Shown: one piece after another, positions 30,424 to 47,166 of the stretch
How positions within the stretch are numbered: position 1 is the first letter of the stretch
Layout: each line of letters begins with the position of its first letter
NCBI GenBank assembly: GCA_902518965.1
Contig: CABYIQ010000006.1
Span: forward strand, 1 to 64,000
DNA length: 64,000 nt
Direction of reading: 5' to 3'
Source: an uncultured SAR116 cluster alpha proteobacterium
GTDB taxonomy: Bacteria > Pseudomonadota > Alphaproteobacteria > Puniceispirillales > Puniceispirillaceae
The notes under the pieces: model-generated
Databases searched by the model: none
Seen by the model: the letters and a program-made list of their open reading frames with translations, nothing else
Told to the model about the DNA's origin: nothing
Position numbers and translations under genes: made by a program

Positions 30424-31190
30424 AGAAGGCCAGTCATAATCAAACGCACACCTAAAATTAAAAACACACTTAATACAATTTTGCGGAATAAATCCTGAGA
30501 AATATAGCTGCGCATCAACTCGCCAATGCGAAATCCTATAACAACAGCTATCAGGCCCAAGACTGACTGCAACGCCGCCTCAAAGGTCAGCACACCTGAC
30601 AAGATGAGCCCAGCTGCAAGCGGGAAGCAGCCTGCAAGGAACAAAAAGCCTGAGGCGCCAATAAATTCCTCTTTTGATACATTTCGGGCCAAGAGATACA
30701 TTGCCACTGGTGGTGACCAAATAGAACTAAGCCCACCTAAGATTCCTGAGATCAAGCCTACACCCACCTGCCATCCCAAATGACTAGATATAGGTAGGGT
30801 CATGCCAAATAAAAGATTTAAAGAAAACACAACCATCGCCACACCAATTGCCACGGTTAATAGGGCGGTTGGGTAAGAAGCGATAAACAAAGAGGTAATG
30901 AAAATACTGAACATAATAGTAAGTGCAAAGTATTTATATTTTTGTGCTGTTTGGCGACGCTCTTCTGAACGAAAAAATTGCATGATGTTGGCGAAGATGA
31001 TCGGCAGAACCATTAAGGAGATGGCTGTCTTTGGGTCGATAAAAATTGTCAATAGGGCCATTGCTGCAGCAGGCAGGCCGATACCTAAAAATCCTTTAAT
31101 GATGCCTGAACATAAAAAGGCGGCAATAATGACTGGTATATAGTGAACTGGTAGGTTCGGCAGCAGTAATACTTGCAAAACGTCAGTCAC
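30420..31190 (-). CDS. TSUP-family (TauE/SafE) anion exporter, copy 1
   Basis: A 256-residue membrane protein with about eight spans and the repeated GxxxGxxGxG motifs of TSUP (SGIIKGFLGIGLPAAA and SGILGGLSSIWSPPV). TauE/SafE proteins export sulfite or sulfoacetate or take up organic anions. It is 33 bases downstream of the CoA-ligase gene on the same strand, completing an operon of TctCBA, aldehyde dehydrogenase, ligase and exporter. In sulfonate degraders such a carrier removes the sulfite released by Xsc. Confidence 0.88.
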   Translation of the reverse strand: MTDVLQVLLLPNLPVHYIPVIIAAFLCSGIIKGFLGIGLPAAAMALLTIFIDPKTAISLMVLPIIFANIMQFFRSEERRQTAQKYKYFALTIMFSIFITSLFIASYPTALLTVAIGVAMVVFSLNLLFGMTLPISSHLGWQVGVGLISGILGGLSSIWSPPVAMYLLARNVSKEEFIGASGFLFLAGCFPLAAGLILSGVLTFEAALQSVLGLIAVVIGFRIGELMRSYISQDLFRKIVLSVFLILGVRLIMTGLL

Positions 31191-31223
31191 AGTAAATCCT
31201 CACCATATGGCTTTGCCGGCTTG

Positions 31224-32747
31224 TTAACTTCTGTCATAAACCAGATCATGGAGCTTCAAACGCTGTACTTTGCCAGATGGCCCCTTGGGTAAATCATCAA
31301 CAATATGAATATTGTCCGGCGATTTAAATTTGCCAAGTCTGTCCTTACAATGTTGTATTAGACTGTCCGCAGCAGCGTGCATGCCTGGCTTCAGTCGGAT
31401 GCAGGCTTCTACCCGTTGTCCGTAATTTTTGCAAGGCACAGCGAAAGCGGCTGCTTCAAGAACGCAATCGTGTTCTAATAAGGTTTCGTCAATTTCGCGT
31501 GGGGCGATGTTCTCCCCGCCTTTAATGATCAATTCTTTCATCCGGCCTGTCACAAACACATAGCCGTCTTCATCCATATGGCCCAGATCACCTGTCCTCA
31601 GCCAGCCATCTGTTGTAATTGTTTTTGCGGTTTCCTCTGGCTGATGAAGATACCCCTGCATGACATTTGCACCACGAATGAGAATTTCGCCTGTAACCAT
31701 GGCTGCAACTTGGTTTTGTTGGTCATCTGCGATAATTACTTCATTGCCAATTGCTTCGCCTGGTGAGCCAATCTTTCGTTCACCAGGAGGCAGGGGGTTG
31801 GATAAAATTTGAGCACCGGTTTCTGTCAGCCCCATTGTTTCAATTATCGGGATGCCGAAGCGGGTTTCAAATTTTCGATGTGTTTCAGGGGGCAGGGGGG
31901 CAGATGCTGAACGAGCAAAACGTAGTCTGTCCGTATTTATGTCAGGTGTGACATCGTCATTCAGAAGATAGGCAAACAGAGTTGGCACCGCGCTAAACCA
32001 GCTTACGTTGTGTTGTTTGACTTGAGGCCAGAAGGAGGAAACAGAAAATTTATAGGGTATTACTAAACCACTGGCTGAGACTAATGATCCCATCACTGTC
32101 ACGCACATCCCGTTAATATGATAGATGGGCAAAACACACAAGCCTATGTCTTCACTTGTGATTTTATGTGCTGTGACAACATTTTGTCCAGCAGCCAGCA
32201 GATTTGCGTGCGAAAGGACAGCCCCTTTGGGATTGCCGGTCGTGCCAGAAGTATACATCAGTAGAGCGGGGCTGTCCGGATGTGGGGCGTCAGTTGTTGG
32301 AGATTGAGCCCATTTAAAATTTTCCGGCCAGATGGGGCCCGTTTCAGGATGTAGCGGTATTATCAGAATCTCATCCTGTGCTTCGCTCAGCACTTCATCC
32401 ATAAGGGCTTTGTTTTCTGGTGTGCAGAATAATACTTTTGCCTGACAATGGCTCAGAACATAAGAGATAGCCTTAGTCCCAGATACCAGGTTCAGAGGCG
32501 TGCCCAGATATCCGGCACTTGCAATTGCGGTGAATAATAATGCGCTAGCAATGCAATTTTGAGCGGCAATGGCAACAGGTTCACCTGGACGCAGCCCAAG
32601 CTGATGAAGATAACTGACAATATCCTGAATGTTGTGCTGTGCCTGCGCCCAGTTGACTGTCTGTCCTGTTTCGGGTGAGGTCAGCCAAATGGCGTCTGCC
32701 TTAGTTGCAGCATTATGGGCAAGTTTGGATGGGAGGGTTGTGGTCAT
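31224..32747 (-). CDS. AMP-forming acyl-CoA ligase, candidate sulfoacetate-CoA ligase
   Basis: A 507-residue ANL-superfamily enzyme. It has the P-loop LLMYTSGTTGNPKGA near residue 165, the MGLTETGA region, the GWLRTGDLGHMDEDGY hinge and the catalytic C-terminal Lys in GPSGKVQR. It activates a carboxylate with ATP and CoA. The start overlaps the aldehyde-dehydrogenase stop by four bases. The pair of ligase plus CoA-acylating aldehyde dehydrogenase next to a TTT carrier and TSUP exporter mirrors the sauT/sauS arrangement of sulfoacetate degraders. The substrate is inferred from that context only; malonate-type or other short acids remain possible. Confidence 0.85.
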   Translation of the reverse strand: MTTTLPSKLAHNAATKADAIWLTSPETGQTVNWAQAQHNIQDIVSYLHQLGLRPGEPVAIAAQNCIASALLFTAIASAGYLGTPLNLVSGTKAISYVLSHCQAKVLFCTPENKALMDEVLSEAQDEILIIPLHPETGPIWPENFKWAQSPTTDAPHPDSPALLMYTSGTTGNPKGAVLSHANLLAAGQNVVTAHKITSEDIGLCVLPIYHINGMCVTVMGSLVSASGLVIPYKFSVSSFWPQVKQHNVSWFSAVPTLFAYLLNDDVTPDINTDRLRFARSASAPLPPETHRKFETRFGIPIIETMGLTETGAQILSNPLPPGERKIGSPGEAIGNEVIIADDQQNQVAAMVTGEILIRGANVMQGYLHQPEETAKTITTDGWLRTGDLGHMDEDGYVFVTGRMKELIIKGGENIAPREIDETLLEHDCVLEAAAFAVPCKNYGQRVEACIRLKPGMHAAADSLIQHCKDRLGKFKSPDNIHIVDDLPKGPSGKVQRLKLHDLVYDRS

Positions 32748-34168
32748 TTACCAAACTCATCCCAATAACTAGCAAAAATATCCTCAAGTTCTGGCTTTTT
32801 CTCAGGAATAACGCGCACCACATTGACCCTGTTCACAAAATGAGACCAGTTTAAATTCTCATCAATTGAATTACCGCCCCAACTGCCACAGCCCATTGAG
32901 AGGGAAAAGGGCATACCATTATTAAAGAAACCACCCGTTGCAAAACAATGTGCCTGATTAACTATGACCCTGCAGGTGCGCGCTCGCATGGCTAGATAGC
33001 GGGCCCGTTCATCATCGACTGAATGCAAACCAAGCGAATGTCCTGCCCCCTGGAAAGACTGGATAGCTATAGCTTTTTCAACAGCTCCTTCAAAATTGGC
33101 TGCTTTATGTATTGATAAAAACCTAGCCATTTTTTCACCTGTCAGCGGATATTCTGGGCCAATATCAGACTGAGGCAAAATTAGAAACCGAGTGTTGTTA
33201 GGAGCTGTTTTGTTTAGACCTGTTGCGTCTAGCACCTTGTCAATATCCTGGGCTAGAAGTGTGGTTGTCATTTTCCCATTCTGCCAGTGAACTGATTGCA
33301 CTAGCTGACTCTGCTCTTCATTCAAGAGAAAACCGCCAGCATTAGCCAGTGCAGTAATCATCTGATCATATATTGGCTCCACCACTACAAGTGAATTTTC
33401 AGATGAACAGGATGTTGCGTTGTCAAAAGTTTTAGAGGCGGCAATTTTTGTGGCTGCGTCATTCAAATCGGCGGTCTCATCGATGATTGTCACAACATTT
33501 CCCGCACCAACACCAATGGCGGGCGTGCCAGACATATATCCCGCCCTTACATTGCTTTGCGAACCTGTGACCACTACCAAGTCAGCCAATTGCATTAGCT
33601 TTTGTGTCTTTAATTTGGAAGGGGGGCTAGGAACCATCTGTACCAGTTCTACAGGTAAACCAAGTTTGGCTATCGCATCATGAATATAGCCTAACAAGAG
33701 TCTTGCTGGCTTTACTCCCTTCGGACTTGGCGCGATAATAATCGCATTCCCTGTTTTTAAGGCATTAATTATATTATTTACCGGTGTGGCTAGAGGGTTG
33801 GTAGACGGGACTATCGCGGCAATGACACCCTTTGGGCGCAGATAAGATGACAGACCTTTCTCTTTATTATCGCTGATATGTCCGAAGCTTTTGACATCCT
33901 TTAGGTCACGCATCAGCCCCAGTGTTTTATTATGGTTTTTTTTGATTTTGTCGGCCACATTGCCAAGACCAGTTTCAGCGACTGCCAGTTCGGCAAGCTG
34001 TTTGTTTCGCTCGGGTTCCATCAAGACCCAGGCTACGGCCTGACAAGCTTTGTCAAAAACTTCTTGTGACCCATTTGCTTCATAATGCTGCTGAGCCAAT
34101 CGGCCAGCAGCAACCAGGTCATCAATGATTTTTTCGTCCTCAAATTGTGTATCTTCTGCAACTGTCAT
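32744..34168 (-). CDS. CoA-acylating aldehyde dehydrogenase, candidate sulfoacetaldehyde dehydrogenase (SauS-like)
   Basis: A 474-residue member of the EutE/AdhE-N-terminal type of aldehyde dehydrogenases, which use CoA as acceptor. Catalytic Cys254 lies in NATSCSSENS and the cofactor region is VPSTNPLATPVNNI near residue 120. The ATG at 34168 follows AAGGC; a longer frame from 34273 overlaps tctA and adds a basic tail. In the reducing direction it would turn an acyl-CoA into an aldehyde. With the ligase it could convert sulfoacetate to sulfoacetaldehyde, as SauT and SauS do. The Xsc enzyme needed next is not in this window. No microcompartment-targeting peptide or shell gene is present. Confidence 0.82.
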   Translation of the reverse strand: MTVAEDTQFEDEKIIDDLVAAGRLAQQHYEANGSQEVFDKACQAVAWVLMEPERNKQLAELAVAETGLGNVADKIKKNHNKTLGLMRDLKDVKSFGHISDNKEKGLSSYLRPKGVIAAIVPSTNPLATPVNNIINALKTGNAIIIAPSPKGVKPARLLLGYIHDAIAKLGLPVELVQMVPSPPSKLKTQKLMQLADLVVVTGSQSNVRAGYMSGTPAIGVGAGNVVTIIDETADLNDAATKIAASKTFDNATSCSSENSLVVVEPIYDQMITALANAGGFLLNEEQSQLVQSVHWQNGKMTTTLLAQDIDKVLDATGLNKTAPNNTRFLILPQSDIGPEYPLTGEKMARFLSIHKAANFEGAVEKAIAIQSFQGAGHSLGLHSVDDERARYLAMRARTCRVIVNQAHCFATGGFFNNGMPFSLSMGCGSWGGNSIDENLNWSHFVNRVNVVRVIPEKKPELEDIFASYWDEFGK

Positions 34169-34205
34169 GATGTTGTACTTTTGCCTTTTCGGATAGCAAG
34201 CCTTA

Positions 34206-35696
34206 TCAGGCTTTTTTCGCCGGCGCGCGTAGAGCTTGATAAACACCAACACCGAGCGTAAGCACACCCGCAAGAATTAATAATGAGCAAATAGGACGCG
34301 AAAGATAGGCCACAATATCATAATGCACCATCTGCATGCCTTGAGCAAAGTTTTGCTCGCCAATCTTGCCCAGAATGATACCAAGAACAATACCAGGAAT
34401 AGAATAACCAGACCGTCGCAGCAAAAATCCTATGATGCCAGCAAGGAACATTACCATTACATCTAGAACCAAACCACGCCCTATATAGGCACCAATGCTA
34501 GCTAGAAGAAGAATTAGCGGTGCCAAAAACTGAAATGGTATTTTCAGTAAGTAGAGTATTGTTTTGGTTTCCAGAATGCCTACGAATAAAATTGACAAAT
34601 TGGCATAAAACATAGCCGCAAAGACTACCCAGATTAAATCTGGCGAGTTGTAAAATACTAGCGGGCCAGGCTCAAGATCATGCATCTGGAATACAGCGAC
34701 CATCATAGCAGTCAATGCGCCGCCTGGAAGCCCGAGGGCAAGAAGCGGTATCATCGCGGCCCCCGTCGCCGCATTATTGGCTGTCTCTGATGAAATTACA
34801 CCTTCAATGTTCCCTTTTCCAAAGCTTTCTTTGTCCTTAGACCATCTGACTGCTTCCCCATAGCCCATAAAGGCGGCTAGTGTGGCGCCAATACCAGGTA
34901 GAATGCCACAAAAAAATCCAACCAGAATTGAACGCAGGACAGCTATTTTCTGCGCCCATAATTCAAACAGGGTTGGGAAAGACATTCCCACTTTTGGCGC
35001 ATTGAATGTGCCTGTTGCGCGCTTTTCAGCTTGGACAAAAATTTCAGATACAGCGAAAAAACCTAGAATTGCAGGAACAAATGCAATGCCAGCTGCCAGA
35101 TCAGCAAAGCCAAAATTAAACCGGTTTATACCACCGACCGGATCCTGACCAATTGTGGCAATCAACAGACCTAGAAGAACAGATAGCCAGCCTTTCCAAA
35201 TGGTGCGCCCGCCAACAGATGAGGCAACCGCGAGACCAAAGAAGACCAGAGCGAAGATTTCAGGTGGGCCAATATTCCTGATCGCCCATGTAGCCAGAGG
35301 CTGGGTTGCAGCCATCATAACCAAAGCAGAAGCTACCCCGCCAATGGCAGAGCATAGCACTGCTGCTCCAACTGCTTTCCCGGACTTGCCTTGCTTTGTC
35401 ATAGGATAGCCATCAAAGGCTGTTGGTGCATTTTCAGGCGCGCCAGGAATGTTGAAGAGAATAGCTGTAATCGCCCCTCCATATGTACCTGTGCAATAAA
35501 TCACAGCAAATAACATCACCCCTTGTGCTGGCGATAAATCAGACGTGAATGGCAGCAGGATGGCTGCCAATGTTAGCATGCTCACCCCGGGTATAGCACC
35601 AAAGAGCATGCCGCCAATAACGCCAAAAAAGAAGATCGCCAGGGTGAAGGGATCTCCAAAGAGAGCGGAACTACCTGCAATGAAATTTTCAATCAT
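34206..35696 (-). CDS. tctA: Tripartite tricarboxylate transporter large permease (TctA)
   Basis: A 496-residue membrane protein with about 11 spans and the TctA signatures GAIPGVSMLTLAAILLPF (near residue 30) and GILPGIGATLAAFMGYG (near 265). It is the main channel of a TTT importer with TctB and the TctC receptor. It sits between tctB and the aldehyde-dehydrogenase gene in one operon, so the imported acid is probably the substrate of the ligase. Confidence 0.93.
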   Translation of the reverse strand: MIENFIAGSSALFGDPFTLAIFFFGVIGGMLFGAIPGVSMLTLAAILLPFTSDLSPAQGVMLFAVIYCTGTYGGAITAILFNIPGAPENAPTAFDGYPMTKQGKSGKAVGAAVLCSAIGGVASALVMMAATQPLATWAIRNIGPPEIFALVFFGLAVASSVGGRTIWKGWLSVLLGLLIATIGQDPVGGINRFNFGFADLAAGIAFVPAILGFFAVSEIFVQAEKRATGTFNAPKVGMSFPTLFELWAQKIAVLRSILVGFFCGILPGIGATLAAFMGYGEAVRWSKDKESFGKGNIEGVISSETANNAATGAAMIPLLALGLPGGALTAMMVAVFQMHDLEPGPLVFYNSPDLIWVVFAAMFYANLSILFVGILETKTILYLLKIPFQFLAPLILLLASIGAYIGRGLVLDVMVMFLAGIIGFLLRRSGYSIPGIVLGIILGKIGEQNFAQGMQMVHYDIVAYLSRPICSLLILAGVLTLGVGVYQALRAPAKKA

Positions 35697-35702
35697 ATTT
35701 GC

Positions 35703-36260
35703 CTACCACAATTGCTGGAGGTCATTATTTAAACGCAAAATTAATGCGCTGTAATCATAGAAAGGTGAGGTGTTTCCCTGCGGAAGGGGCGCGTTTAAAA
35801 CAACCATGAAAAGACCAAGCAATAAACCATAAATTAGAGCGGTAATACATAGTATCCATTTCCAGCGTCGCTCCCCAAAAATAACAATAATCAGAGCAAT
35901 GAAAAAAGGTGTCGCAAAGTAGAAGCCAACTGGTTTAAGCGACAAGGCAAATAAGAAAGGTGTGCCTAGGACAGCTAATACCTTTATAACTGCCGCCAAA
36001 TTATCATAGCTACCTACCTCATCATCATCGGCAATGCCTACGCGCCCTGCCTGAGTGGTTGAGCCATATTTGAGATGGTGATAAAAGTTACCAAATGTCA
36101 CAATTAGCATCAGGCCGATAACGACCCGTGGCCAACCAGTAGCTCCAAAAATGTATATTTCAATTGGTTGATTGAATTCAAATGTAAAGCCAAAAAATAT
36201 AACCGCGATCAACAGCCACACTGCTGTTTCAATCATATGTGATTTTGTTAGTTTGCCCAT
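35703..36260 (-). CDS. tctB: Tripartite tricarboxylate transporter small permease (TctB)
   Basis: A 185-residue protein with four spans in the pattern of TctB: one N-terminal helix, a long soluble loop and three C-terminal helices. The ATG at 36260 is preferred over one at 36284. It is followed by tctA after six bases and preceded by tctC behind a hairpin. TctB sequences are poorly conserved, so the call rests on topology and position. Confidence 0.88.
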   Translation of the reverse strand: MGKLTKSHMIETAVWLLIAVIFFGFTFEFNQPIEIYIFGATGWPRVVIGLMLIVTFGNFYHHLKYGSTTQAGRVGIADDDEVGSYDNLAAVIKVLAVLGTPFLFALSLKPVGFYFATPFFIALIIVIFGERRWKWILCITALIYGLLLGLFMVVLNAPLPQGNTSPFYDYSALILRLNNDLQQLW

Positions 36261-36306
36261 TAAATATCTACCGCTACATATCAATTCTTATGACATCGAA
36301 GAATAA

Positions 36307-36337
36307 GAGCTGGTCCCGCAATTAGCGAGACCAGCTC
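36307..36337 (-). terminator. Hairpin between tctC and tctB
   Basis: A 13-base-pair stem (one G-U pair) with arms GAGCTGGTCTCGC and GCGGGACCAGCTC on the minus strand and a five-base loop, followed by TTATTCTT. It lies 18 bases after the tctC stop. It probably ends or protects the tctC transcript so that more receptor than permease is made. Confidence 0.65.
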
Positions 36338-36355
36338 ACCAGAAAGAAACAAACG

Positions 36356-37378
36356 TTATTTAACGTCAAGTCCCATCTGCTTGTACACAGCTCGATATTG
36401 CGGGATCGTCGCATTAATTAGCTCAATTGAACCTTCCGTATCACGATAGCTATCAATGACTGTCATGAATTTAGATTCATTAAACTTCTGGTAGCTGTCT
36501 TGGCAATAACCACGCTGGAATGCCCATTTAAGCCATTCTACACGGTCCGCTGGTGCATCTTTATGCACATAAAAACCACGGAAACGCAGAAGTGGTTCAA
36601 AATCCATGCCCATTTCTTTATGAGTTGGTACGTCCGCAAAAACCCCAGGGCGTTCATTAAATATGGTCAGAATGGGCTTAAAGTCCCCTGAATCTAGAAA
36701 CTTTCGCACATCACCAGGCTGCTCATAAAGAGCATCAACTTGACCGCCAAGCAACGCACCATAACGAGGGGCACCTTTATCAAAAGAAATTTGCTGAATG
36801 CTCATATTGCTGGCATCTGTGATGAACTTCATCGTCACTCGCTCCATTGAGCCTTCTTTTGAAACATTGGCAATTGTAGCTTTGCCATCTTGGGCTTTCA
36901 CCCATTTCACAAATGATGGCCAATCTGAGTACCTTGTCTCATTGGATCTAATATAAATTTGTGAAAATGTTACTTGTGCAGTTACCAGCGGAATTAAATC
37001 CCTGCCGGGGTGTGGTTTGCTTGAATCAAGCGCATGGGCTGATGAAGCGTCATCAATATGTTCAAGAACTGTATAACCGTCAGTTGGTGCAGCCATATAC
37101 GCTGTCATCCCAACCGTGCCTGAGCCGCCTGACTTATGGTCCCTATTTATGGAGACACCAGTTAATTCTGTGACTGCTTCAGCCATTGCTGCAGCAATTT
37201 GTCCTGAACCACCAGCTGGCCCGTAAGGAACAATCATGGTTAAAGCCCGGTCAGGAAAGCCATTTGGCTTAGCCATACTTGCGTTTTTAACTTTGCATTC
37301 AAATGCGTTTGCAACACTAACCGATAGTGCCATCATAGAAGATAGCGCGGTTACTGAAATTATTTTAGTTAACTTCAT
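36356..37378 (-). CDS. tctC: TTT transporter substrate-binding protein (TctC/Bug family)
   Basis: A 340-residue periplasmic receptor with a signal peptide ending SVANA. It has the Bug-family PDRALTMIVPYGPAGGSGQIA segment near residue 45 that closes over a carboxylate, and conserved loops such as GGQVDALYEQPGDV. The ATG at 37378 is spaced five bases from GGAGG; the ATG one codon earlier is too close. Bug receptors bind di- and tricarboxylates, and in some sulfonate degraders sulfonated acids. The ligand is inferred from the downstream ligase and acylating dehydrogenase. Confidence 0.92.
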   Translation of the reverse strand: MKLTKIISVTALSSMMALSVSVANAFECKVKNASMAKPNGFPDRALTMIVPYGPAGGSGQIAAAMAEAVTELTGVSINRDHKSGGSGTVGMTAYMAAPTDGYTVLEHIDDASSAHALDSSKPHPGRDLIPLVTAQVTFSQIYIRSNETRYSDWPSFVKWVKAQDGKATIANVSKEGSMERVTMKFITDASNMSIQQISFDKGAPRYGALLGGQVDALYEQPGDVRKFLDSGDFKPILTIFNERPGVFADVPTHKEMGMDFEPLLRFRGFYVHKDAPADRVEWLKWAFQRGYCQDSYQKFNESKFMTVIDSYRDTEGSIELINATIPQYRAVYKQMGLDVK

Positions 37379-37553
37379 CATTTCCTCCGTTCGATTGCAT
37401 CATTAAGTTGAACCAAAATATTTGAAAAATGCAAACCTAATTTCTCAGTTTTTGCTCTTTGAAAATGATTCTGGAGTAAATTTTAGATTGCAACTATTCT
37501 CCTACAGGTAACTTCGTTTTAGCGTCCCGATATCCGATTATTGAACAAAAGCT

Positions 37554-38285
37554 ATGAATACAATCACAGTCCAAGTTAGCCGAGGCTCCGAAAAACATTC
37601 TGAGTTTCAGACATTTGAGGTACCTGAACAGGAAAATCAAACCGTATTGGATTTGGTAACATACATACAAGAATATATCGATCCTACATTATCTTACAGA
37701 TTCGCTTGCAGGGTAGGTATGTGTGGGTCATGCGGAATGATGGTAAATGGTGAGCCTCGCTGGACTTGCAGAACACATGTAAAAAAAGTGCTTGGAAGTT
37801 CCAAAACTATTGAGGTTGGACCTCTAAAAAATCTTCCAGTTATTAAAGACTTGGTTGTTGATATGGACACATTTTTTGATAAATGGATCGCGGTAGGTGG
37901 AGTTCATCACCCTTCAAAAAATAGACATCAATCAATTGAAAAAATCTCTGAACTTAGTGCTGAGCGCATGTCAGCTAATGAGGCTGTTGAATGTATTAAT
38001 TGCGGCGTTTGTTACGCATCATGTGATGTTGTATCTGCAAATAGTGATTATTTCGGTCCAGCAGCTCTTAATCGGGCTTGGTCTTTAGTTAATGACGTTA
38101 AAACCAAAAACAAAGATTCTATATTGGAAGCTGTTAGTGGCAACGCTGGCTGCCACAACTGTCATTCGCAACAGAATTGTTCTAATTATTGTCCAAATGA
38201 ACTTAACCCGTCAGCATCAATAGCCTCACTAAAGCGGACAGTATTTGCCTCAAAAATAAATAATCTTTTCGGAAATTCAAAATGA
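37554..38285 (+). CDS. Succinate dehydrogenase/fumarate reductase-like iron-sulfur subunit
   Basis: A 243-residue electron-transfer subunit. The N-terminal 2Fe-2S domain has Cys52, Cys57, Cys60 and Cys72. The C-terminal domain has the cysteine group 147/150/153/157 (CINCGVCYASC) and a second group at 200/203/209/213 (CHNCHSQQNCSNYCP). It therefore looks able to carry three clusters like SdhB, but the first C-terminal group lacks the Pro that usually follows the fourth Cys. It overlaps the first anchor gene by four bases. It links the flavoprotein to the quinone pool. Confidence 0.85.
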   Translation: MNTITVQVSRGSEKHSEFQTFEVPEQENQTVLDLVTYIQEYIDPTLSYRFACRVGMCGSCGMMVNGEPRWTCRTHVKKVLGSSKTIEVGPLKNLPVIKDLVVDMDTFFDKWIAVGGVHHPSKNRHQSIEKISELSAERMSANEAVECINCGVCYASCDVVSANSDYFGPAALNRAWSLVNDVKTKNKDSILEAVSGNAGCHNCHSQQNCSNYCPNELNPSASIASLKRTVFASKINNLFGNSK

Positions 38286-38611
38286 TATCAGCAAAACTAT
38301 TCATTTTACAGCGTTTGACAGCGTTAATCATGGCGCCTCTTGTGCTGGGTCATCTGGCATTAATGATTTATGCGGTCCAGGGTGGATTAAGCGCGAGTGA
38401 AATACTTGGGCGTACTCAAGGCAGTGTATTTTGGGCGATTTTCTATGCACTTTTCGTTTTTGCTGTCGCTATTCACGCTGCTATCGGAGTGCGCACTGTA
38501 CTTTTTGAATGGCTAAAAATCCGCGGCTCCGTTTTGGAACTTTTATCTTGGAGCCTGGGACTGGCACTTTTAGTGATGGGTTTATACTCCGTTTATGCGG
38601 TAACAGCATGA
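38282..38611 (+). CDS. SDH-like membrane anchor subunit 1
   Basis: A 109-residue protein with three membrane helices. QRLTALIMAPLVLGHLALM near the N-terminus carries an Arg and His placed like the quinone- and haem-binding residues of SdhC/FrdC. It overlaps the genes on both sides by four bases, so the anchor is translated in step with the iron-sulfur subunit. Confidence 0.78.
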   Translation: MISAKLFILQRLTALIMAPLVLGHLALMIYAVQGGLSASEILGRTQGSVFWAIFYALFVFAVAIHAAIGVRTVLFEWLKIRGSVLELLSWSLGLALLVMGLYSVYAVTA

Positions 38612-38970
38612 TCTCATATTCATTAGCCCCTCATCGTCGTAATCTTCTGTGGTCAGCATTTTTAATTCACCGTCTTTCTGGGCTGTGCTTGGCACTTTTT
38701 CTTCCCCTTCATTTTTGGGTGTTGTCACGGGCTCTGCACGATCCCGCCGCTTTAGAGGGTTTTCTTAAATGGACAGACCTGTGGTATGTGAAACTTGGTG
38801 AATACCTTCTTGTCTTTTTGCTAGGCGCTCATTTTTTTGGTGGGCTTCGGCTTATGGCATTCGAAGCCCTGCCTTGGTCTAACAGGCAAAAGACATTTGC
38901 GGCGTTAGCGTTTGCATTATCATTTATTTCAGCAACATTATTTCTTTTTTCGGCGGTGCAATATGGCTAA
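38608..38970 (+). CDS. SDH-like membrane anchor subunit 2
   Basis: A 120-residue protein with three membrane helices. HRLSGLCLALFLPLHFW is the SdhC-type signature with the Arg-Ser-Gly motif and a probable haem-ligand His. The ATG at 38608 overlaps the previous stop (ATGA); a longer frame starting at 38509 has no merit. It overlaps the flavoprotein gene by eight bases. With anchor 1 it would give a two-protein cytochrome b. Confidence 0.78.
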   Translation: MISYSLAPHRRNLLWSAFLIHRLSGLCLALFLPLHFWVLSRALHDPAALEGFLKWTDLWYVKLGEYLLVFLLGAHFFGGLRLMAFEALPWSNRQKTFAALAFALSFISATLFLFSAVQYG

Positions 38971-40723
38971 CACATCATTTGGAAATATTGATAGACACGA
39001 TACCGACATCCTTATCATAGGCTCTGGTGGAGCTGGCCTGTTTGCAGCTTTACATGCTCAAAAAGCTGCTCCAACCCAAAAAGTGACGATAGCTGTTAAA
39101 GGCCTTATCGGTAAGTGTGGTTGCACCAGAATGGTTCAGGGGGGTTATAATGTTGCCCTTGGCGGAGGTGACACCGTCGAAAGACATTTCATGGACACCA
39201 TTATTGGTGGAAAGTGGTTGCCAAACCAAGATATGGCATGGCGATTATGTAATTTAGCCGTGGAGAGAATTACTGAGCTTGAAAATGAAGTGGGGTGTTT
39301 TTTCGATAGAAATGAAGACGGTACCTTACACCAAAAAGCTTTTGCTGGTCAGACCGCGGATAGAACAGTTCATAAAGGCGACCTCACCGGTATTGAAATA
39401 ATAAATCGCCTTATGGAACAAGTTTTGAGCCGGCCAATCGAAAAATTACAAGAACATAGAGCTCTAAGTCTTATTCCTGCAACTGGTGGGGAAGGGATAT
39501 CTGGTGTTTTGTTCATAGATATGCGAACCGGTCGCTTTCGATTTGTTAGGGCTAAAACAATACTCATGGGTATGGGTGGTGGCCCAACCATGTATAAATA
39601 TCAAACACCTTCTGGAGACAAGACAATGGACGGTCAAGCCATGGCCTTGAGAGCTGGCTTGCCGCTACGAGATATGGAGATGGTTCAGTTTCACCCCACA
39701 GGATTATTGGCCGGAAATAACACTCGAATGACAGGGACGGTTTTAGAGGAGGGCTTGAGAGGGGCTGGTGGATATCTTTTAAACAGCCAAGATCACCGGT
39801 TTATGTTTGATTATGACCCGAAAGGTGAAAGAGCAACTCGAGATCTGGTTAGTAGAGCAATTTACTCTGAAATGAAAAAAAATAATAGTTCACCAAATGG
39901 TGGAGTATTCATTTCTATGAGCCATTTAGGACCAGGGGTTGTACGTTCAAAGTTCCCTGGAATGGTCAAACGCTGTGCTGATAGTGGCTTTGATTTAGCT
40001 GGTGGAAAGGTCGAAGTTGTGCCCACCGCTCATTACCTCATGGGTGGTGTTGTTGTTGATGTTGACACTCGTACAGAAGTTCCTGGGTTATTTGTCGCTG
40101 GAGAAGATGCTGGTGGAGCTCACGGCTCAAATCGCCTGGGTGGAAACGGAGTGGCCAATTCCACAGTATATGGCGGTGTAGCTGGAGATGTTATGGGCAA
40201 AGAAGCTACAAAAATGACTAAGCTGCGAACACCTGATGAGGGAATTTTGGAACAAGAAATGATGAGAGCCTGTGCGCCATTTAATAAATCAGTTGCTCCA
40301 TTGGCAGAAATTAGAGAAAAAATGCGTCAAATTATGTGGGATGATGTTGGGGTTGTAAAAACTGGTAGTGGTCTGATCCGAGGCATCAAATCATTAGCTG
40401 CTTTAGAAGGGGAACTTGACTCTATTGGCGTTGATGACAAAGAGCTTGCCTTCAATTTAACTTGGCACGATTGGCTAAACTTAAAGAATTTGATGCAAAT
40501 GTCTAATGTGATTGCTCAAGCTGCACTAGCTCGCGAAAATTCTAGAGGGGCACACCATCGAGAAGATTACCCTGATACCGGGGATTTAGAGAGTTCTTAC
40601 TTTACTTTAGTGCGTCAATCGGGAGATGAATTAAGTGTGAGTCGAGAACCAGTGCAGTTTACAATAGTTAAACCTGGTGAGACAATTTTGCCAGAGCATG
40701 AGCCTGAGTCACTGGTTGGCTAA
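38963..40723 (+). CDS. SDH/fumarate-reductase-like flavoprotein lacking the FAD-linking His
   Basis: A 586-residue flavoprotein with GSGGAG FAD binding near residue 20. The dicarboxylate active-site pieces are all there: QFHPTG, EEGLRGAGGYLLN, RDLVSR, PTAHYLMGG and GSNRLGGNG. The position of the His that carries covalent FAD in SdhA (five residues before QGG) is Cys54. FAD is therefore probably bound without the usual link, which lowers its potential and argues against ordinary succinate oxidation. Gene order is iron-sulfur, two anchors, flavoprotein, then fumarase-like genes, unlike the usual sdhCDAB. A substituted succinate or a fumarate-reducing role are both possible. Confidence 0.88.
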   Translation: MANTSFGNIDRHDTDILIIGSGGAGLFAALHAQKAAPTQKVTIAVKGLIGKCGCTRMVQGGYNVALGGGDTVERHFMDTIIGGKWLPNQDMAWRLCNLAVERITELENEVGCFFDRNEDGTLHQKAFAGQTADRTVHKGDLTGIEIINRLMEQVLSRPIEKLQEHRALSLIPATGGEGISGVLFIDMRTGRFRFVRAKTILMGMGGGPTMYKYQTPSGDKTMDGQAMALRAGLPLRDMEMVQFHPTGLLAGNNTRMTGTVLEEGLRGAGGYLLNSQDHRFMFDYDPKGERATRDLVSRAIYSEMKKNNSSPNGGVFISMSHLGPGVVRSKFPGMVKRCADSGFDLAGGKVEVVPTAHYLMGGVVVDVDTRTEVPGLFVAGEDAGGAHGSNRLGGNGVANSTVYGGVAGDVMGKEATKMTKLRTPDEGILEQEMMRACAPFNKSVAPLAEIREKMRQIMWDDVGVVKTGSGLIRGIKSLAALEGELDSIGVDDKELAFNLTWHDWLNLKNLMQMSNVIAQAALARENSRGAHHREDYPDTGDLESSYFTLVRQSGDELSVSREPVQFTIVKPGETILPEHEPESLVG

Positions 40724-40756
40724 CTTTTAGGTGTTTAAATTTGCTTGGGGGAAGAC

Positions 40757-41722
40757 TTGATACCGATCAATATAATTCAAAAGACCGCCGAAACACTTAT
40801 GGAAAAAGCCGCGATTGAGATCCCTCAGGATTATTTGAGTGGTTTGAAACGTGCGGCTAAAGATGAAGATGGAGATCTATCGTCATTTGTTCTCGAGGCA
40901 ATGCTTGAAAATTATGAGGCTGCTAAACAAGATAGAAGTGCTATGTGCGGAGATACTGGCACGCCCCGTTGGTATGTCAAGATGGGCAATAATGCGAGGA
41001 TAGAGGGTGGTCCAATCGCGCTTGAGAGTGCATTAAGAAGAGCAACTGCAAGCGCGACCAAAACAGTACCTCTGCGTCCTAATCGTGTGCATCCACTTTG
41101 GAGAACAGATTACGATAATAACGTTGGCATTGGAGCGCCAGAGATTGAATATGCATTTGAACCTGAGGGTGAATGGATTGATTTGATTACTGTTCATAAA
41201 GGTGGACTGTTTGGGACAGATTATAGGATGTTATTCCCGTCAGACGGTATTGAGGGAATAAAAAGGTTTTACCTCGATAGTCTGATCGCATTTGGAAAGA
41301 GGGGCCTAGCATGTCAGCCAGCCATAATTGGGATTGGTTTGGGGGGCTCTAAAGATGCATGTATGGTTCTCGGAAAAAGGGCTGCTTGCCTTAGAATTGT
41401 TGGAGACCAAAATCCAGATCCTAAGATAGCAAATTTAGAACAAGAGTTTAAAGAACTTGGAAACTCGATAGGAATGGGTGCAATGGGTTTTGTAGGAAAA
41501 TCCATGGTGATAGACTGTAATATTGAAGTAGGCTTTTGCCACACTGGTGGTATGCAAATGTCAGTCCACGCTTTCTGTTTATCGTCACGTAGAGCAGTTG
41601 CGCGAATATTTCCTAATGGAGAGGTTGTGTATCGCACAGATCCTGAGTGGTATACTCCGTATCAAAGAAGAGAAACTGTGGATTGGCAGGAGAGCCCAGA
41701 ATGGCAAAGCCACGCCGGTTAA
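40757..41722 (+). CDS. Class I fumarase/tartrate dehydratase-type hydratase, alpha subunit
   Basis: A 321-residue iron-sulfur hydro-lyase subunit with a cluster Cys in MCGDTGTP near residue 80, GLGGSKDACMVLGKRA near 210 and a Cys in GFCHTGG near 265. A TTG at 40757 after GGGGGAAGAC is the probable start; a TTG at 40745 is possible. The end overlaps the beta-subunit gene by 22 bases. It needs the beta subunit for activity. The family adds water to fumarate, mesaconate-like acids, or removes it from tartrate. Confidence 0.87.
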   Translation: MIPINIIQKTAETLMEKAAIEIPQDYLSGLKRAAKDEDGDLSSFVLEAMLENYEAAKQDRSAMCGDTGTPRWYVKMGNNARIEGGPIALESALRRATASATKTVPLRPNRVHPLWRTDYDNNVGIGAPEIEYAFEPEGEWIDLITVHKGGLFGTDYRMLFPSDGIEGIKRFYLDSLIAFGKRGLACQPAIIGIGLGGSKDACMVLGKRAACLRIVGDQNPDPKIANLEQEFKELGNSIGMGAMGFVGKSMVIDCNIEVGFCHTGGMQMSVHAFCLSSRRAVARIFPNGEVVYRTDPEWYTPYQRRETVDWQESPEWQSHAG

Positions 41723-42369
41723 CATTAAGCACAAACCCGAAGAAGGAAGAGTTGACTGAGCTTCGCTTGGGCGATGTCGTATATCTTGATGGCACAATAT
41801 ACACAGCTCGAGAAGGCGTTTACAAACGTGCGTTAGAGGAAAAAGCCAATCTGCCTGTGGATTTGCCTCATCAGAGTGCTGCAAATTTTCATTGCTCACC
41901 GGCGGCCTCTATGAATTCGGATGGAAGTTTTAACTTGGGGTCAGTCACCGCAACTGCATCATTTAGGTTTTCCAAATGGATTGGTCAGTGGTTGTCTCAA
42001 TCTGGTGCGAAGCTGATCATCGGAAAAGGGGGAATGAGTGCAGAGGACTATAAAAAGCATTTTGTTCCTAATGGCGCAATCTACCTGACAACAGTTGGAT
42101 ATGGAACAGGAGCACTTTTAGGCCGTGGGGTAGAAAAAGTTTCTGGTGTCTATTGGCATTCTGAACTTGGTTTGGCGCAGGCAATGTGGGTGATCGATGT
42201 AAAACAAATGGGCCCCTTTATGGTCGAGAGTGATTTGCTAGGAAATTCATTATTTGAACGTGAAAACAGGAAAATTGCAGAGGGTATTGGAAAACTATAT
42301 GAAGGAACGAAGCCCGCTACTCTTAAGCGTTATGGTGAAACAGACAACCGCTCAGATGAACTAATTTAA
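41701..42369 (+). CDS. Class I fumarase/tartrate dehydratase-type hydratase, beta subunit
   Basis: A 222-residue partner subunit with the swivel-domain motifs LRLGDVVYLDGTIYTARE near the N-terminus and IGKGGMSAEDYKKHFVPNGAIYLTTVGYG near residue 120. The ATG at 41701 lies inside the end of the alpha gene; a longer frame from 41647 is not needed. The two-subunit form is typical of archaeal and many bacterial enzymes, including tartrate dehydratase TtdAB. Its placement after the SDH-like complex suggests sequential oxidation and hydration of one substrate. Confidence 0.87.
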   Translation: MAKPRRLTLSTNPKKEELTELRLGDVVYLDGTIYTAREGVYKRALEEKANLPVDLPHQSAANFHCSPAASMNSDGSFNLGSVTATASFRFSKWIGQWLSQSGAKLIIGKGGMSAEDYKKHFVPNGAIYLTTVGYGTGALLGRGVEKVSGVYWHSELGLAQAMWVIDVKQMGPFMVESDLLGNSLFERENRKIAEGIGKLYEGTKPATLKRYGETDNRSDELI

Positions 42370-42452: not shown

Positions 42453-43214
42453 ATGTTTGAACTTCAATTTATTGCTTTTGTAGCAATTGGGGCTTCTGTT
42501 GGTGGCTTTGTGAATGGTATTGCTGGTTTTGGCACAGGTCTGTTCGCACTAGGTTGGTGGCTTCTAGTGTTACCTCCAAAGGCATCAGTGTTATTGGTTG
42601 TAGCGCTATCTCTTGTAAGCGGAATTCAAGGCGTTGTAGCTATAAAGCAAAATTTAAATTGGCCGCGGTTAATTAGATTTTTAGCTCCAGCTTTTGTGGG
42701 ATTACCCCTAGGGTTTTTGTTCCTTGAGAGCATAAATGCCCAATTTTTGAAGGTCTTGGTTGGCACATTACTTTTATTCTTTGGGGTATTCTTTGCTTTT
42801 AGGCCAAATTTTCCAAGAATGGCTACGGACAATAATTTTGGTGATATGTTAACTGGATTCGCTGGAGGTGTTTTGGGTTCAGTTGCAGGCTTATCTGGAG
42901 CGTTGCCGACTATTTGGAGTTCTCTTCATGGCTGGAATAAATATGAACAGCGGGCCCTATTGCAACCTTTTAATGTGATCATTCTTGGCATTGTTCTCTT
43001 GTGCTCGCTTTATAAAAACCCAATTCATGATCAATTTTTATTTGCGTTTTTCATTTCGATCCCGTTTTCAGTTTTTGGTTCACAGCTTGGGATATTCACA
43101 TTTAAAAAACTAACAGATAATCAGTTTCGCAGATTATTGGTTTGGCTAATATTTGTGTCTGGTATAGTCTTATTAATCCGTGAAACAAGCGACTTAATTA
43201 TTCTTTTGATTTAG
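42453..43214 (+). CDS. TSUP-family (TauE/SafE) anion transporter, copy 2
   Basis: A 253-residue protein with about eight spans and both TSUP repeats (GGFVNGIAGFGTGLFALG near the start and GGVLGSVAGLSGALPTIW near residue 135). It lies between the hydratase and the DUF3604 gene on the same strand with gaps of 83 and 29 bases. It may carry the organic acid used by the SDH-like and hydratase enzymes or export an inorganic product. Confidence 0.88.
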   Translation: MFELQFIAFVAIGASVGGFVNGIAGFGTGLFALGWWLLVLPPKASVLLVVALSLVSGIQGVVAIKQNLNWPRLIRFLAPAFVGLPLGFLFLESINAQFLKVLVGTLLLFFGVFFAFRPNFPRMATDNNFGDMLTGFAGGVLGSVAGLSGALPTIWSSLHGWNKYEQRALLQPFNVIILGIVLLCSLYKNPIHDQFLFAFFISIPFSVFGSQLGIFTFKKLTDNQFRRLLVWLIFVSGIVLLIRETSDLIILLI

Positions 43215-43243: not shown

Positions 43244-45580
43244 ATGACTGAGATTCCTTTAGGAAGCCGTGATGACATTCATTCTGGAGGAGGTGTAGGA
43301 GGAGAAAAAAGCAGTCCAGTTGCATATCCCATTCCTTCTGAAGAATTAGGTTTAGTTTCAATTAGTCCATCCGGTTCATTTGAAGCTGGAAGCTATCAAA
43401 CGTTTACACTGGTTTACACAGCGGGGAAATTTGGTATTGATGACTCTGGCTCTATGAGGATTTGTTTCAGGTTTGCTAGTGACCAAACAAGGCCGCAATT
43501 TGAGAATCCAACAGGACCAAATTATACAACCATCGTTGCTTCAAATAATGCTGTCTTGAATTATCACTATGATCCAAAGGGCAATGTTAGGCCCTGGGAT
43601 CGGACTTTATATATAAAAGTTGTTCGCGGTTTCCTCAAAGAGGGTGATACAATAACTGTAAAATTCGGCGATAAATCGAAGGGGTCGCCGGGAATGCGAC
43701 TTCAAACTTTTTGCGAGGAAAGTTATGAATTTCACACGTTGGTCGACCCTATTGCTACCTATTGCTATCAACCCATGCCCGAACAACCTACTATCAAAAT
43801 TGTTCCAGGGCCTGCAGAAAGATTTTTAGCAATTGGACCAACGATCAGGGCAGTAGGTGAGCCATTTCAGATCAAAATAAAAGGTGAAGATAAATGGGGA
43901 AACCCTACTAACTTGTGCGATTATGAATTTGATGTAGTGTCGGCTTGTAAAATTAAGGGCCTTCCCAAGAAGGTGACACTTAAATCCGGAGAGTTCACGG
44001 CGACATTGTCAGACCTGAGGGTTCAGACGGCAGAAGATTTCACTGTTAAATTTACGAATGATGAGAACAATATTGCTTTTGAAACAAATCCAATAAGAAT
44101 TGAAGAAAAACCGCAATCCAGACATTTTTGGGGTGATTTGCACGGACAATCAGAGGAGACCATAGGCACCAATTCTGCGGAAGCTTATTTCAAATTTGCC
44201 CGCGATCTGGCTTTTGTTGATGTTTCTGGACATCAGGGAAATGATTTCCAAATCACTACTGATTTTTGGAAACATCTTGATGAGCTTTGTAAAAAGTTCA
44301 ATCAAGATGGAAAGTTTATTGCGATTCCAGGATATGAATGGTCAGGAAACACAGGCCTTGGTGGAGACCGAAACATATATTTCCCTACTGAAGGCCGAAC
44401 TCTTCGTCGCTCGTCACACGCACTAGTGAGTGACCATTCGGATATATCTACTGACTGTAATTCAGCTACAGAATTGTTCTCTGCTTTTGCAGAAAATGAT
44501 GAGTCGGATGTTGTGGTCTATGCTCATTGTGGAGGACGCTACGCAGATATTGAATTAGCCCATGACGGACGTTTTGAAAAGTCGATGGAAATACACTCTA
44601 GTTGGGGTACTTTTGAGTGGTTAATTCAAGATGCTTTTCGTCTTGGTTATCGGGTCGGGATTGTGGCGAATTCAGATGGTCATAAGGGAAGGCCGGGAGC
44701 TAGTTATCCTGGAGCTGCTTTGTTTGGTGCGGTTGGCGGTTTAACTTGCTTTCTAGTCAATGAACTGGCCAGAGAGTCGATTTTAGATTGCATTCGTAAA
44801 CGTCGGCATTATGCGACCACTGGGGGAGAGCATGGTCGGCCACTAATAAATGTGACAGCTAAATTTTCTGAATCTGGCCAAATATATAACGATGATCCGA
44901 AGCTATTTTCCTCAAATAGCACTGGGTCAAATAGTGCTCTAATGGGAGACATAGTTCATCTACCCAACGGACAAATGGAGTTAAATATTGAGGTTAAGTG
45001 CAGCGCACCTATTGAGCGAATAGACATATTCAATGGTCTTGAGAAACTCGAAACAATAAAGCCCTATAAACAGGACGAATTAGGAAACAGAATAAGGATT
45101 ATCTGGGAGGGTGCGGAGTATCGGGGGCGTTTTAGACAGGTAATTTGGGATGGTTCAGCTTATTTATCAGATAATGAGGTAGTTTCATCCAAGGCTATAA
45201 ATTTCTTCAATAAGGACAAAAGTCTCATTCAGTCTTCCCCTAATGAATTGACATGGAGGGCACTAACCACTGGCAACATCGGTGGTTTTGATATGATATT
45301 AGCTGATCCTTATAGTGGCACACTAAAAATCGAGACACCCCTTGTTAAGGCTGGCATTCCAATTGAAGACATAGGATATGAGGATGAAATTTTTGACAAT
45401 AGCGGTGTTTTGCCAAGATACTTGAAGGTTTTCAGACTACCAACCGAAAATCCTCATAAAACAATGCAAGTGAAATATCCTGTAGAACTGAATTCAAAAG
45501 GTGACAATCCTATCTTTGTGAGGCTCACTCAGGAAGACGGTACCTTAGCTTGGACAAGTCCAATCTACGTTTACAGATAG
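43244..45580 (+). CDS. DUF3604-domain protein, PHP-like metal-dependent hydrolase
   Basis: A 778-residue soluble protein without signal peptide. The N-terminal 290 residues are beta-rich, with Ig-like stretches. The central part has metal-binding motifs in the order of the PHP fold: HFWGDLHGQSE near residue 300, SGHQGND near 330, YAHCGG near 425 and ANSDGHKG near 475. A beta-sandwich-like C-terminus ends the chain. DUF3604 proteins are often large and of unknown function; the metal site suggests a phosphoester- or amide-type hydrolase. It ends the plus-strand run that starts with the SDH-like genes. Confidence 0.8.
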   Translation: MTEIPLGSRDDIHSGGGVGGEKSSPVAYPIPSEELGLVSISPSGSFEAGSYQTFTLVYTAGKFGIDDSGSMRICFRFASDQTRPQFENPTGPNYTTIVASNNAVLNYHYDPKGNVRPWDRTLYIKVVRGFLKEGDTITVKFGDKSKGSPGMRLQTFCEESYEFHTLVDPIATYCYQPMPEQPTIKIVPGPAERFLAIGPTIRAVGEPFQIKIKGEDKWGNPTNLCDYEFDVVSACKIKGLPKKVTLKSGEFTATLSDLRVQTAEDFTVKFTNDENNIAFETNPIRIEEKPQSRHFWGDLHGQSEETIGTNSAEAYFKFARDLAFVDVSGHQGNDFQITTDFWKHLDELCKKFNQDGKFIAIPGYEWSGNTGLGGDRNIYFPTEGRTLRRSSHALVSDHSDISTDCNSATELFSAFAENDESDVVVYAHCGGRYADIELAHDGRFEKSMEIHSSWGTFEWLIQDAFRLGYRVGIVANSDGHKGRPGASYPGAALFGAVGGLTCFLVNELARESILDCIRKRRHYATTGGEHGRPLINVTAKFSESGQIYNDDPKLFSSNSTGSNSALMGDIVHLPNGQMELNIEVKCSAPIERIDIFNGLEKLETIKPYKQDELGNRIRIIWEGAEYRGRFRQVIWDGSAYLSDNEVVSSKAINFFNKDKSLIQSSPNELTWRALTTGNIGGFDMILADPYSGTLKIETPLVKAGIPIEDIGYEDEIFDNSGVLPRYLKVFRLPTENPHKTMQVKYPVELNSKGDNPIFVRLTQEDGTLAWTSPIYVYR

Positions 45581-45692: not shown

Positions 45693-47129
45693 TTAAGTGT
45701 ATATCTCACTAGAATATTTTGTTACCAGAAAAGCTTCTAGTCCTTCGATGCTTCCCTCATAACCATATCCACTGTGCTTTAGCCCGCCGAATGGCGTTTC
45801 GACTGAATGAATGTGCATAGAATTTATTGCAAGCATTCCAGATTCAATTTCTGATTTTAATATCTGACTAGTTCTTGGATTGCTAGTAAATGCATATGAT
45901 GCGAGGCCAAAGGGCAAAGAATTTGCTCTTTCTATAATTTCATCGATAGATGAAAATGATGCGCTGGGAGCCACTGGGCCAAATGGCTCTTCAATCATGA
46001 TTTTTGCAGTATCAGGAACATCTCTGATCAGAGTAGGTTCAAAGAATGAGCCCGGGCTTTGACCTCTTCCACCTCCAGAAATTACTTCCCCTCCGCTTGA
46101 AACCGCATCAGATATGAAGTCTTCCATTACTTCTAATCGTCGGTCTGCCACTAATGGTCCCATAGTTGACTTTGAGTCAAGTCCGTCTCCAACGTTTATT
46201 GCTTCAACATGACTTTTGAATGATTTAATGAATTCATCATAAACTGGCTCCTCAATAAAAAATCTTGTTGGTGAAATACACACTTGGCCAGCATTTCGAA
46301 ATTTGCCTGCTGCACAATGTTTTACAGCAGCTTCAATATCTGCGTCTTTGAAAATCATCACAGGCGAATGTCCTCCGAGTTCCATCGTACACCTAATCAG
46401 ATTTTGTGCTGCCAGTTTTTGCAGATGAATTCCTACGGGCACACTGCCAGTGAAGCTGAGTTTTCGTGGAATTGGAGAAGAGAGCAAGTGCTCTGATACT
46501 TCAGAGGGTACACCAAATACTATATTTAAAACTCCGGCTGGCAAGCCAGCTTCCATCAGTGCTTTACCAATCGCTATTGCTGTTGCTGGGGTCTCTTCAC
46601 TGGGTTTGATCGTAATTGAGCATCCAGCTGCTAATGCCCCAGCAACCTTTCTCATCACGTTGGTAGCAGGAAAATTCCATGCAACAAATGCTAGAACCGG
46701 CCCCACAGGCACTTTTCTGGCCTCGTGTTCCATATTTGGAATTCTTGAGGGAATAATGCGTCCATAGACACGTTTTCCCTCTTCGCCGTACCATCGTAAC
46801 AAATCAATTGCTACTTGCATCTCTATCTTGGCTTCGGCTAGCGGCTTACCCATTTCACGGGTCAGGTTTTCAGAATTCTTGTCAAATTCGCGCTCTAATA
46901 TTTTCGCTGCTTTTTCCAAGATAGACTGGCGGTTCAGGGGCGTCTCACTGCGCCACTTGTTAAAGCCCTCAAGGCTGCTATTCAGCGCATCATCTAAATC
47001 CTCTTTGCTTGCATGAGGTAATTCGCCAAGAACAGTTCCATCTGCAGGACAAATAACGTTTTCAGTGACACCCGATGTGCCATTGGTCCATTCACCAGCA
47101 ATGAGCATTTGTAATTGGGGGTAAGACAT
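45693..47129 (-). CDS. NAD(P)-dependent aldehyde dehydrogenase, succinate-semialdehyde-dehydrogenase type
   Basis: A 478-residue aldehyde dehydrogenase with catalytic Cys284 (GQVCISPTRF), Glu250 (MELGGHSP), Asn152 (WNFPATN) and the FTGS cofactor motif near 226. Its overall pattern is that of GabD/short-chain semialdehyde dehydrogenases. Relatives of GabD also oxidise sulfolactaldehyde in sulfoglycolysis. It is 37 bases downstream of a GMC alcohol oxidoreductase on the same strand, an arrangement that suggests alcohol to aldehyde to acid conversion. Confidence 0.88.
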   Translation of the reverse strand: MSYPQLQMLIAGEWTNGTSGVTENVICPADGTVLGELPHASKEDLDDALNSSLEGFNKWRSETPLNRQSILEKAAKILEREFDKNSENLTREMGKPLAEAKIEMQVAIDLLRWYGEEGKRVYGRIIPSRIPNMEHEARKVPVGPVLAFVAWNFPATNVMRKVAGALAAGCSITIKPSEETPATAIAIGKALMEAGLPAGVLNIVFGVPSEVSEHLLSSPIPRKLSFTGSVPVGIHLQKLAAQNLIRCTMELGGHSPVMIFKDADIEAAVKHCAAGKFRNAGQVCISPTRFFIEEPVYDEFIKSFKSHVEAINVGDGLDSKSTMGPLVADRRLEVMEDFISDAVSSGGEVISGGGRGQSPGSFFEPTLIRDVPDTAKIMIEEPFGPVAPSASFSSIDEIIERANSLPFGLASYAFTSNPRTSQILKSEIESGMLAINSMHIHSVETPFGGLKHSGYGYEGSIEGLEAFLVTKYSSEIYT

Positions 47130-47166
47130 CTTGTTCTCCTATAAAATTCAGTCTCAATAATTTAAA

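Follow-up and report, generated by a model that had tools for sequence, protein, structure and literature searches.

We describe a run of six plus-strand genes that very probably forms part of a sulfonate pathway. It lies in a stretch of 64,000 nucleotides from an uncultured SAR116 cluster alpha proteobacterium (assembly GCA_902518965.1, contig CABYIQ010000006.1, positions 1 to 64,000 of the forward strand), which we call the window, and it encodes an iron-sulfur subunit (B), two membrane anchors (D and C), a flavoprotein (A) and the alpha and beta subunits of a class-I fumarase-like hydratase, together termed the module. Judging from the sequence, B-D-C-A is probably a membrane-bound, complex-II-type 3-sulfopropionate:quinone oxidoreductase, which would strip 3-sulfopropionate, succinate's sulfonate analogue (-O2C-CH2-CH2-SO3-), of two hydrogens and pass the electrons via the iron-sulfur subunit to quinone; the hydratase would then convert the resulting 3-sulfoacrylate to 3-sulfolactate. 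Desulfonation of sulfolactate would take place elsewhere: SuyAB could split it into pyruvate and sulfite, or it could be oxidised and decarboxylated to sulfoacetaldehyde, on which Xsc would act. TauE could let the sulfite out, or a SorA-like enzyme could oxidise it for export through YeiH. Importers of the TTT, TRAP or SsuABC type would handle uptake, with an adjacent LysR regulator in most genomes. We infer the substrate, product, direction of flux, stereochemistry and quinone acceptor, and the role of each neighbour, from the genes and their context. The initial annotation had proposed that these genes oxidise a substituted succinate and hydrate the product; the scheme appears right in form, the substrate probably being 3-sulfopropionate. 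The surrounding genes indicate a sulfonate counterpart of succinate as substrate, which would place the module among sulfonate rather than dicarboxylate pathways. We consider it likely that the module mirrors, for a sulfonate, the succinate-fumarate-malate steps of the tricarboxylic acid (TCA) cycle, feeding electrons from 3-sulfopropionate to the quinone pool and supplying sulfolactate, and that two different fumarase lineages have been recruited to the same complex.

The dehydrogenase and its hydratase

All six genes of the initial annotation were borne out by Pfam and NCBIfam matches (Table 1), as were its spacings by the coordinates: the successive overlaps within B, D, C and A are 4, 4 and 8 bases long, A and alpha stand 33 bases apart, and 22 bases are common to alpha and beta. 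Start sites were refined using orthologues and the sequence, the flavoprotein being read from an ATG at 38963 with a TTG at 38912 lying upstream. B stands first and A last, unlike in sdhCDAB, as had been proposed; the anchors, previously given as C then D, are read here as D then C. The order B-D-C-A-alpha-beta is kept in 17 of 20 loci read across the SAR116 order and in 16 of 20 from other Alphaproteobacteria families, so the arrangement is not due to chance. The complex belongs to the complex II superfamily, with matches to PF00890, PF02910, PF13085 and, twice, PF01127, each over its cut-off and within one operon; the B protein carries Fer2_3 and 4Fe-4S domains (TIGR00384, 193.8 bits, cut-off 88).

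Table 1. The six module genes, followed by neighbouring genes of the window
Feature	Position	Strand	Basis
SdhB-like iron-sulfur subunit, 2Fe-2S and dicluster domains	37554..38285	+	Pfam/NCBIfam; first gene of module, conserved
SdhD-like membrane anchor, 109 aa	38282..38611	+	PF01127
SdhC-like membrane anchor, 120 aa	38608..38970	+	PF01127
SdhA/FrdA-like flavoprotein, 586 aa from ATG, proposed catalytic subunit	38963..40723	+	tree, residues, PDB comparison
Class-I fumarase/tartrate-dehydratase-type alpha, TTG start, proposed 3-sulfoacrylate hydratase alpha	40757..41722	+	Pfam/NCBIfam
Hydratase beta subunit, TtdB/FumA-C type	41701..42369	+	PF05683, 78.6 bits
TauE/TSUP-family transporter, proposed sulfite (or sulfonate) exporter	42453..43214	+	PF01925
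DUF3604/CehA-McbA-like hydrolase	43244..45580	+	PF12228, 31.1 bits
Succinate-semialdehyde-dehydrogenase-like aldehyde dehydrogenase	45693..47129	-	TIGR01780, 438 bits, below 646 cut-off
TctC solute-binding protein, TTT importer, divergent operon	36356..37381	-	84% identical homologue, same place in L197
TctB	35703..36284	-	Pfam match; L197 comparison
TctA	34206..35696	-	groups with TctA genes of 36 loci; 87% identical to L197 protein
SauS, acylating sulfoacetaldehyde dehydrogenase	32744..34168	-	NF047625, 641 bits, cut-off 600
SauT-like acyl-CoA ligase, presumed sulfoacetate--CoA ligase	31224..32747	-	PF00501; position beside SauS, kept in L197
Second TauE/TSUP transporter	30420..31190	-	PF01925

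In a tree of 44 flavoproteins, one group (100/100) unites the window protein with all its module relatives and stands apart from SdhA, FrdA and NadB of Escherichia coli and from three canonical SdhA proteins of the same order; the NadB branch is very long, and the rooting serves for drawing only. The initial annotation had asked for this phylogeny and allowed that the protein might fall inside the SdhA clade; it lies outside. Its best model match is to thiol:fumarate reductase, while its match to TIGR01812 (427 bits) stays below the cut-off of 567 and that to the L-aspartate oxidase model TIGR00551 (347 bits) below 452.75, in keeping with its separation from NadB. In all 38 flavoproteins compared (30 from modules and eight more distant), the FAD-carrying His is replaced by Cys, the Val two residues on by Arg, and the Thr that binds the substrate carboxylate by Glu, with the catalytic Arg, two His and the binding Arg all retained. 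By its place in the tree, and by the Cys and Glu in the FAD and carboxylate positions, the protein is not a canonical succinate dehydrogenase. The complex resembles E. coli SdhCDAB and FrdABCD in having a flavoprotein, an iron-sulfur subunit, two three-helix anchors and these four retained residues, but differs in sequence (flavoprotein 32-34% identical), clade, the three substitutions and the B-D-C-A order. Since the active-site loops 45-65 and 242-262 of its AlphaFold model have confidence (pLDDT) values below 50, no argument is drawn from the pocket.

The hydratase has the two-subunit class-I fumarase/TtdAB fold, with PF05681 in alpha, PF05683 in beta (cut-off 22.2) and the three Fe-S cluster cysteines kept; alpha matches TIGR00722 at 210 bits (cut-off 100.65). 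The more specific fumarase and tartrate dehydratase models were not reached (PRK06246, 198 against 276 bits; PRK08230, 139 against 365; PRK08228, 121 against 264). Orthologues of alpha are 66-97% identical, followed by a gap down to about 35%, which marks a discrete subfamily. The enzyme is thus like TtdAB and the Methanocaldococcus jannaschii fumarase 7xky in its subunits and cluster cysteines, but unlike TtdAB in that alpha is 25% identical to E. coli TtdA and reads C(G/A)DTG for CQDTG. A second hydratase type, about 35% identical, is present in eight genomes.

Separate TCA-cycle enzymes, which the initial annotation had suggested looking for, were found in relatives. An ordinary SdhA, about 36% identical, is also present in the complete module-bearing relatives examined, and FumC is over its cut-off in eight of nine module genomes outside the SAR116 order; within that order FumC was not found in the 11 module genomes tested. 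Eight module genomes of the SAR116 order carry a separate class-I fumarase-like protein of about 540 aa, near the detection limit. The window's own assembly, which is 76% complete, yielded no other SdhA and no FumC. The module is wholly absent from many SAR116 relatives. For the family as a whole, the claim that the dehydrogenase and hydratase are not simply the TCA pair is upheld by the flavoprotein's clade and by the SdhA of relatives.

Sulfolactate as the probable product

Two distant loci (L248 and L249) connect the module to sulfolactate. Within about 14 kb, on one strand, each holds orthologous B-D-C and A genes, a hydratase pair of the second type, SuyA and SuyB, together with ComC-like and SlcC-like (D-2-hydroxyacid) dehydrogenases, TauE and an SsuABC-like sulfonate importer. 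Their flavoproteins are 62-63% identical to the window's A and nest within the module clade, and their SuyB proteins are 69-70% identical to a protein of Paracoccus strain Merri (393 aa, PF04295) that follows a SuyA-like one. We take this Merri protein as SuyB from its size, its partner and the published description of the strain, no NCBIfam SuyB model being among the hits. The best match of the ComC-like proteins is NF040650, L-sulfolactate dehydrogenase, at 200 and 182 bits, below the cut-off of 500. The module thus co-localises with genes for sulfolactate desulfonation and, widely through TauE, for sulfite export, and its product is probably sulfolactate.

Co-occurrence points the same way. 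Among 385 sampled Alphaproteobacteria, 24 carry the hydratase alpha; SuyB is found in 11 of these and in 22 of the 361 others (Fisher p 4e-7), and for SuyB or Xsc the figures are 16 of 24 and 51 of 361 (p 3e-8), statistics in which related genomes are not independent. SuyB is present in every one of the eight genomes that hold the second type of hydratase. Compared with known sulfolactate and 2,3-dihydroxypropane-1-sulfonate (DHPS) catabolism (hpsRNOUP-suyAB, SlcC/ComC, SuyAB), the module shares neighbours, types of importer and exporter, and the sulfolactate node, but its starting compound would be 3-sulfopropionate, desaturated and hydrated to sulfolactate, in place of DHPS or sulfolactaldehyde.

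Published work offers two further points of contact. In Paracoccus strain Merri grown on sulfofucose, proteomics found that nine proteins of an 11-gene "cluster 3" (MDP0926751-761) rose; the cluster was annotated with fumarate and tartrate metabolism, has a TauE homologue at MDP0926757, and was linked by its finders to the Krebs cycle, and sulfolactate builds up in the sulfofucose-grown cells. We matched this cluster by gene layout, not by locus tags, to the strain's locus L165, whose eleven genes run B-D-C-A-alpha-beta-TauE-LysR-SsuABC, with TauE seventh. The second is Roseovarius nubinhibens ISM, which, according to PMC11489063, citing a thesis, degrades 3-sulfopropionate via sulfoacrylate and sulfolactate, with no genes given there. 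These two steps require complex-II dehydrogenase and fumarase-type hydratase chemistry, and in its reactions the route fits the module. Bacteria such as Enterococcus gilvus form 3-sulfopropionate from sulfoquinovose and DHPS, and others form it from homotaurine; a 2024 paper treats its bacterial degradation as unreported apart from the thesis. Our literature searches found no sulfosuccinate genes and no 3-sulfopropionate enzymes or genes.

At least 541 loci emerged when named genomes were scanned; the best 80 belong to SAR116, roseobacters, Paracoccus, Hyphomicrobiales and others, and the six-gene order is usually intact. Neighbours were counted over 120 loci (some genomes occur in both collections, so that counts are slightly inflated; genes on high-GC loci were called with a codon-position model): LysR in 68, TauE/TSUP in 52, TctA in 36, SsuABC-like importers in 10, CaiB CoA-transferase and the putative sulfate exporter YeiH in nine each, and SorA-like sulfite dehydrogenase in six. 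The CaiB, YeiH and SorA-like genes often immediately adjoin the hydratase genes. An enzyme of acetolactate-synthase type, dependent on thiamine diphosphate, lies near the module in 25 loci (e.g. L156:4121-5722); it is not Xsc (152 bits against a cut-off of 676) and is a candidate single-chain sulfopyruvate decarboxylase. In L165 and its Paracoccus relatives an alcohol dehydrogenase, a short-chain dehydrogenase/reductase and a HisD-type protein come next, the same family trio as HpsP, HpsO and HpsN, which convert DHPS to sulfolactate.

If the proposal holds, genes would be at hand for a step of 3-sulfopropionate degradation in abundant marine and soil bacteria, the hosts including SAR116, roseobacters, Paracoccus and rhizobial relatives. 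It would also explain the induced Merri cluster and widen the substrates of respiratory complex II beyond succinate. Surveys of genomes and metagenomes may then be mistaking genes of this kind for the succinate dehydrogenase and fumarase of the TCA cycle.

Competing explanations

Several observations weigh against oxidation of 3-sulfopropionate. The FAD-linking His is lost, and flavoproteins without it often favour the reductive direction; with Glu in place of Thr, a negative charge stands where a substrate carboxylate normally binds. Seven module genomes, including four that are 94-100% complete, yielded neither Xsc (over its cut-off) nor SuyB. The Merri proteome was that of cells grown on sulfofucose, not 3-sulfopropionate. 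In two SAR116 genomes a TauD-like dioxygenase replaces the complex directly upstream of alpha/beta (L092:8730-9599, L099:9384-10241), and the neighbours of the module in SAR116 genus g5 are CaiB, CitE/RipC-like, FAS1_DH/MaoC-like and PrpD genes (L089:14493-18728), a set that suits C5 dicarboxylates.

The module genomes with neither Xsc nor SuyB would suit a sulfosuccinate pathway, in which the complex would form sulfofumarate and hydration at the sulfonate carbon would yield an unstable hydroxysulfonate, whose breakdown would release oxaloacetate and sulfite without any further enzyme. This would agree with the position of TauE beside the hydratase and with the TTT importers, most of whose known ligands bear two acid groups; SauST and TauE made it our first hypothesis. 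It was demoted because SuyAB and sulfolactate dehydrogenases share the L248/L249 cluster and the literature names sulfolactate; it leaves these genes and the co-occurrence of SuyB unexplained, our literature searches found no pathway of the kind, and we now regard it as unlikely.

The altered flavin site and the thiol:fumarate reductase match could be imagined to serve the opposite direction, with sulfolactate dehydrated, sulfoacrylate reduced by quinol and 3-sulfopropionate exported by TSUP, as a fumarate-reductase-like electron sink; a TauE protein is named in the literature as a probable 3-sulfopropionate exporter of E. gilvus. This is distinctly unlikely, however, given the adjacent importers, SorA-like sulfite dehydrogenase and YeiH, the co-localised SuyAB, which would compete for sulfolactate, and hosts that are mostly marine and soil Alphaproteobacteria, where respiration is expected.

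The genus g5 genes would fit a conversion of methylsuccinate via mesaconate to citramalate, followed by CoA transfer and cleavage by a CitE-type lyase, and nine loci have a different CaiB, which in most of them lies between alpha and beta. The g5 synteny, coming from a single genus, counts as one case, and most loci lack the CaiB-CitE-MaoC-PrpD genes and show recurrent sulfite- and sulfonate-handling genes instead, which makes C5 dicarboxylates a very unlikely substrate class. Finally, that the module is the organism's TCA-cycle succinate dehydrogenase and fumarase, as the missing SdhA and FumC of the incomplete window assembly and the lack of FumC in the 11 genomes tested from its order might suggest, is extremely improbable and largely refuted, and we dropped it on the flavoprotein tree, the altered active site, the canonical SdhA of relatives, the FumC of other module genomes and the many SAR116 relatives that do without the module.

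Surroundings of the module

Returning to the 3-sulfopropionate proposal, the module adjoins sulfoacetate-type genes in the window, since a divergent minus-strand operon (30420-37381), absent from the initial annotation, encodes TctC-TctB-TctA, SauS, a SauT-like ligase and a second TauE/TSUP protein. A Tateyamaria locus (L197) repeats this layout, its TctC, TctA, SauS, SauT and TauE homologues being 84, 87, 55, 51 and 60% identical. The SauS/SauT/TTT/TauE operon beside the module in both places recalls sulfoacetate catabolism (SauS, SauT, Xsc), but that is a neighbouring pathway, separate from the module. The L197 operon is split by extra genes (L197:9381-9998, L197:10951-11877) for proteins weakly of isochorismatase/amidohydrolase type and weakly of homocysteine-methyltransferase type.

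Downstream of the module, the TSUP carrier and DUF3604 protein of the initial annotation are present on the same strand. A DUF3604/CehA-like protein, 52-53% identical, accompanies TauE in two distant loci as well (L253:2593-4860, L255:7624-9864) and could possibly free a sulfonate from an ester or amide. The succinate-semialdehyde-dehydrogenase-like enzyme might, speculatively, form 3-sulfopropionate from its aldehyde; it stands with a GMC alcohol oxidoreductase (45693-48777), and the two could turn 3-hydroxypropanesulfonate into 3-sulfopropionate. A class-III aminotransferase near the module in L176:17330-18649 and five other loci could yield 3-sulfopropionaldehyde from homotaurine. The CaiB-type CoA-transferase found between alpha and beta forms cluster m24 (e.g. 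L174:10951-12105). A 104-aa protein beside the SorA-like genes, considered as the sulfite-dehydrogenase cytochrome, proved to be NIPSNAP. An enolase-superfamily gene of mandelate racemase type lies at 50878-51996 of the window, and its homologues occur near the module in 14 loci.

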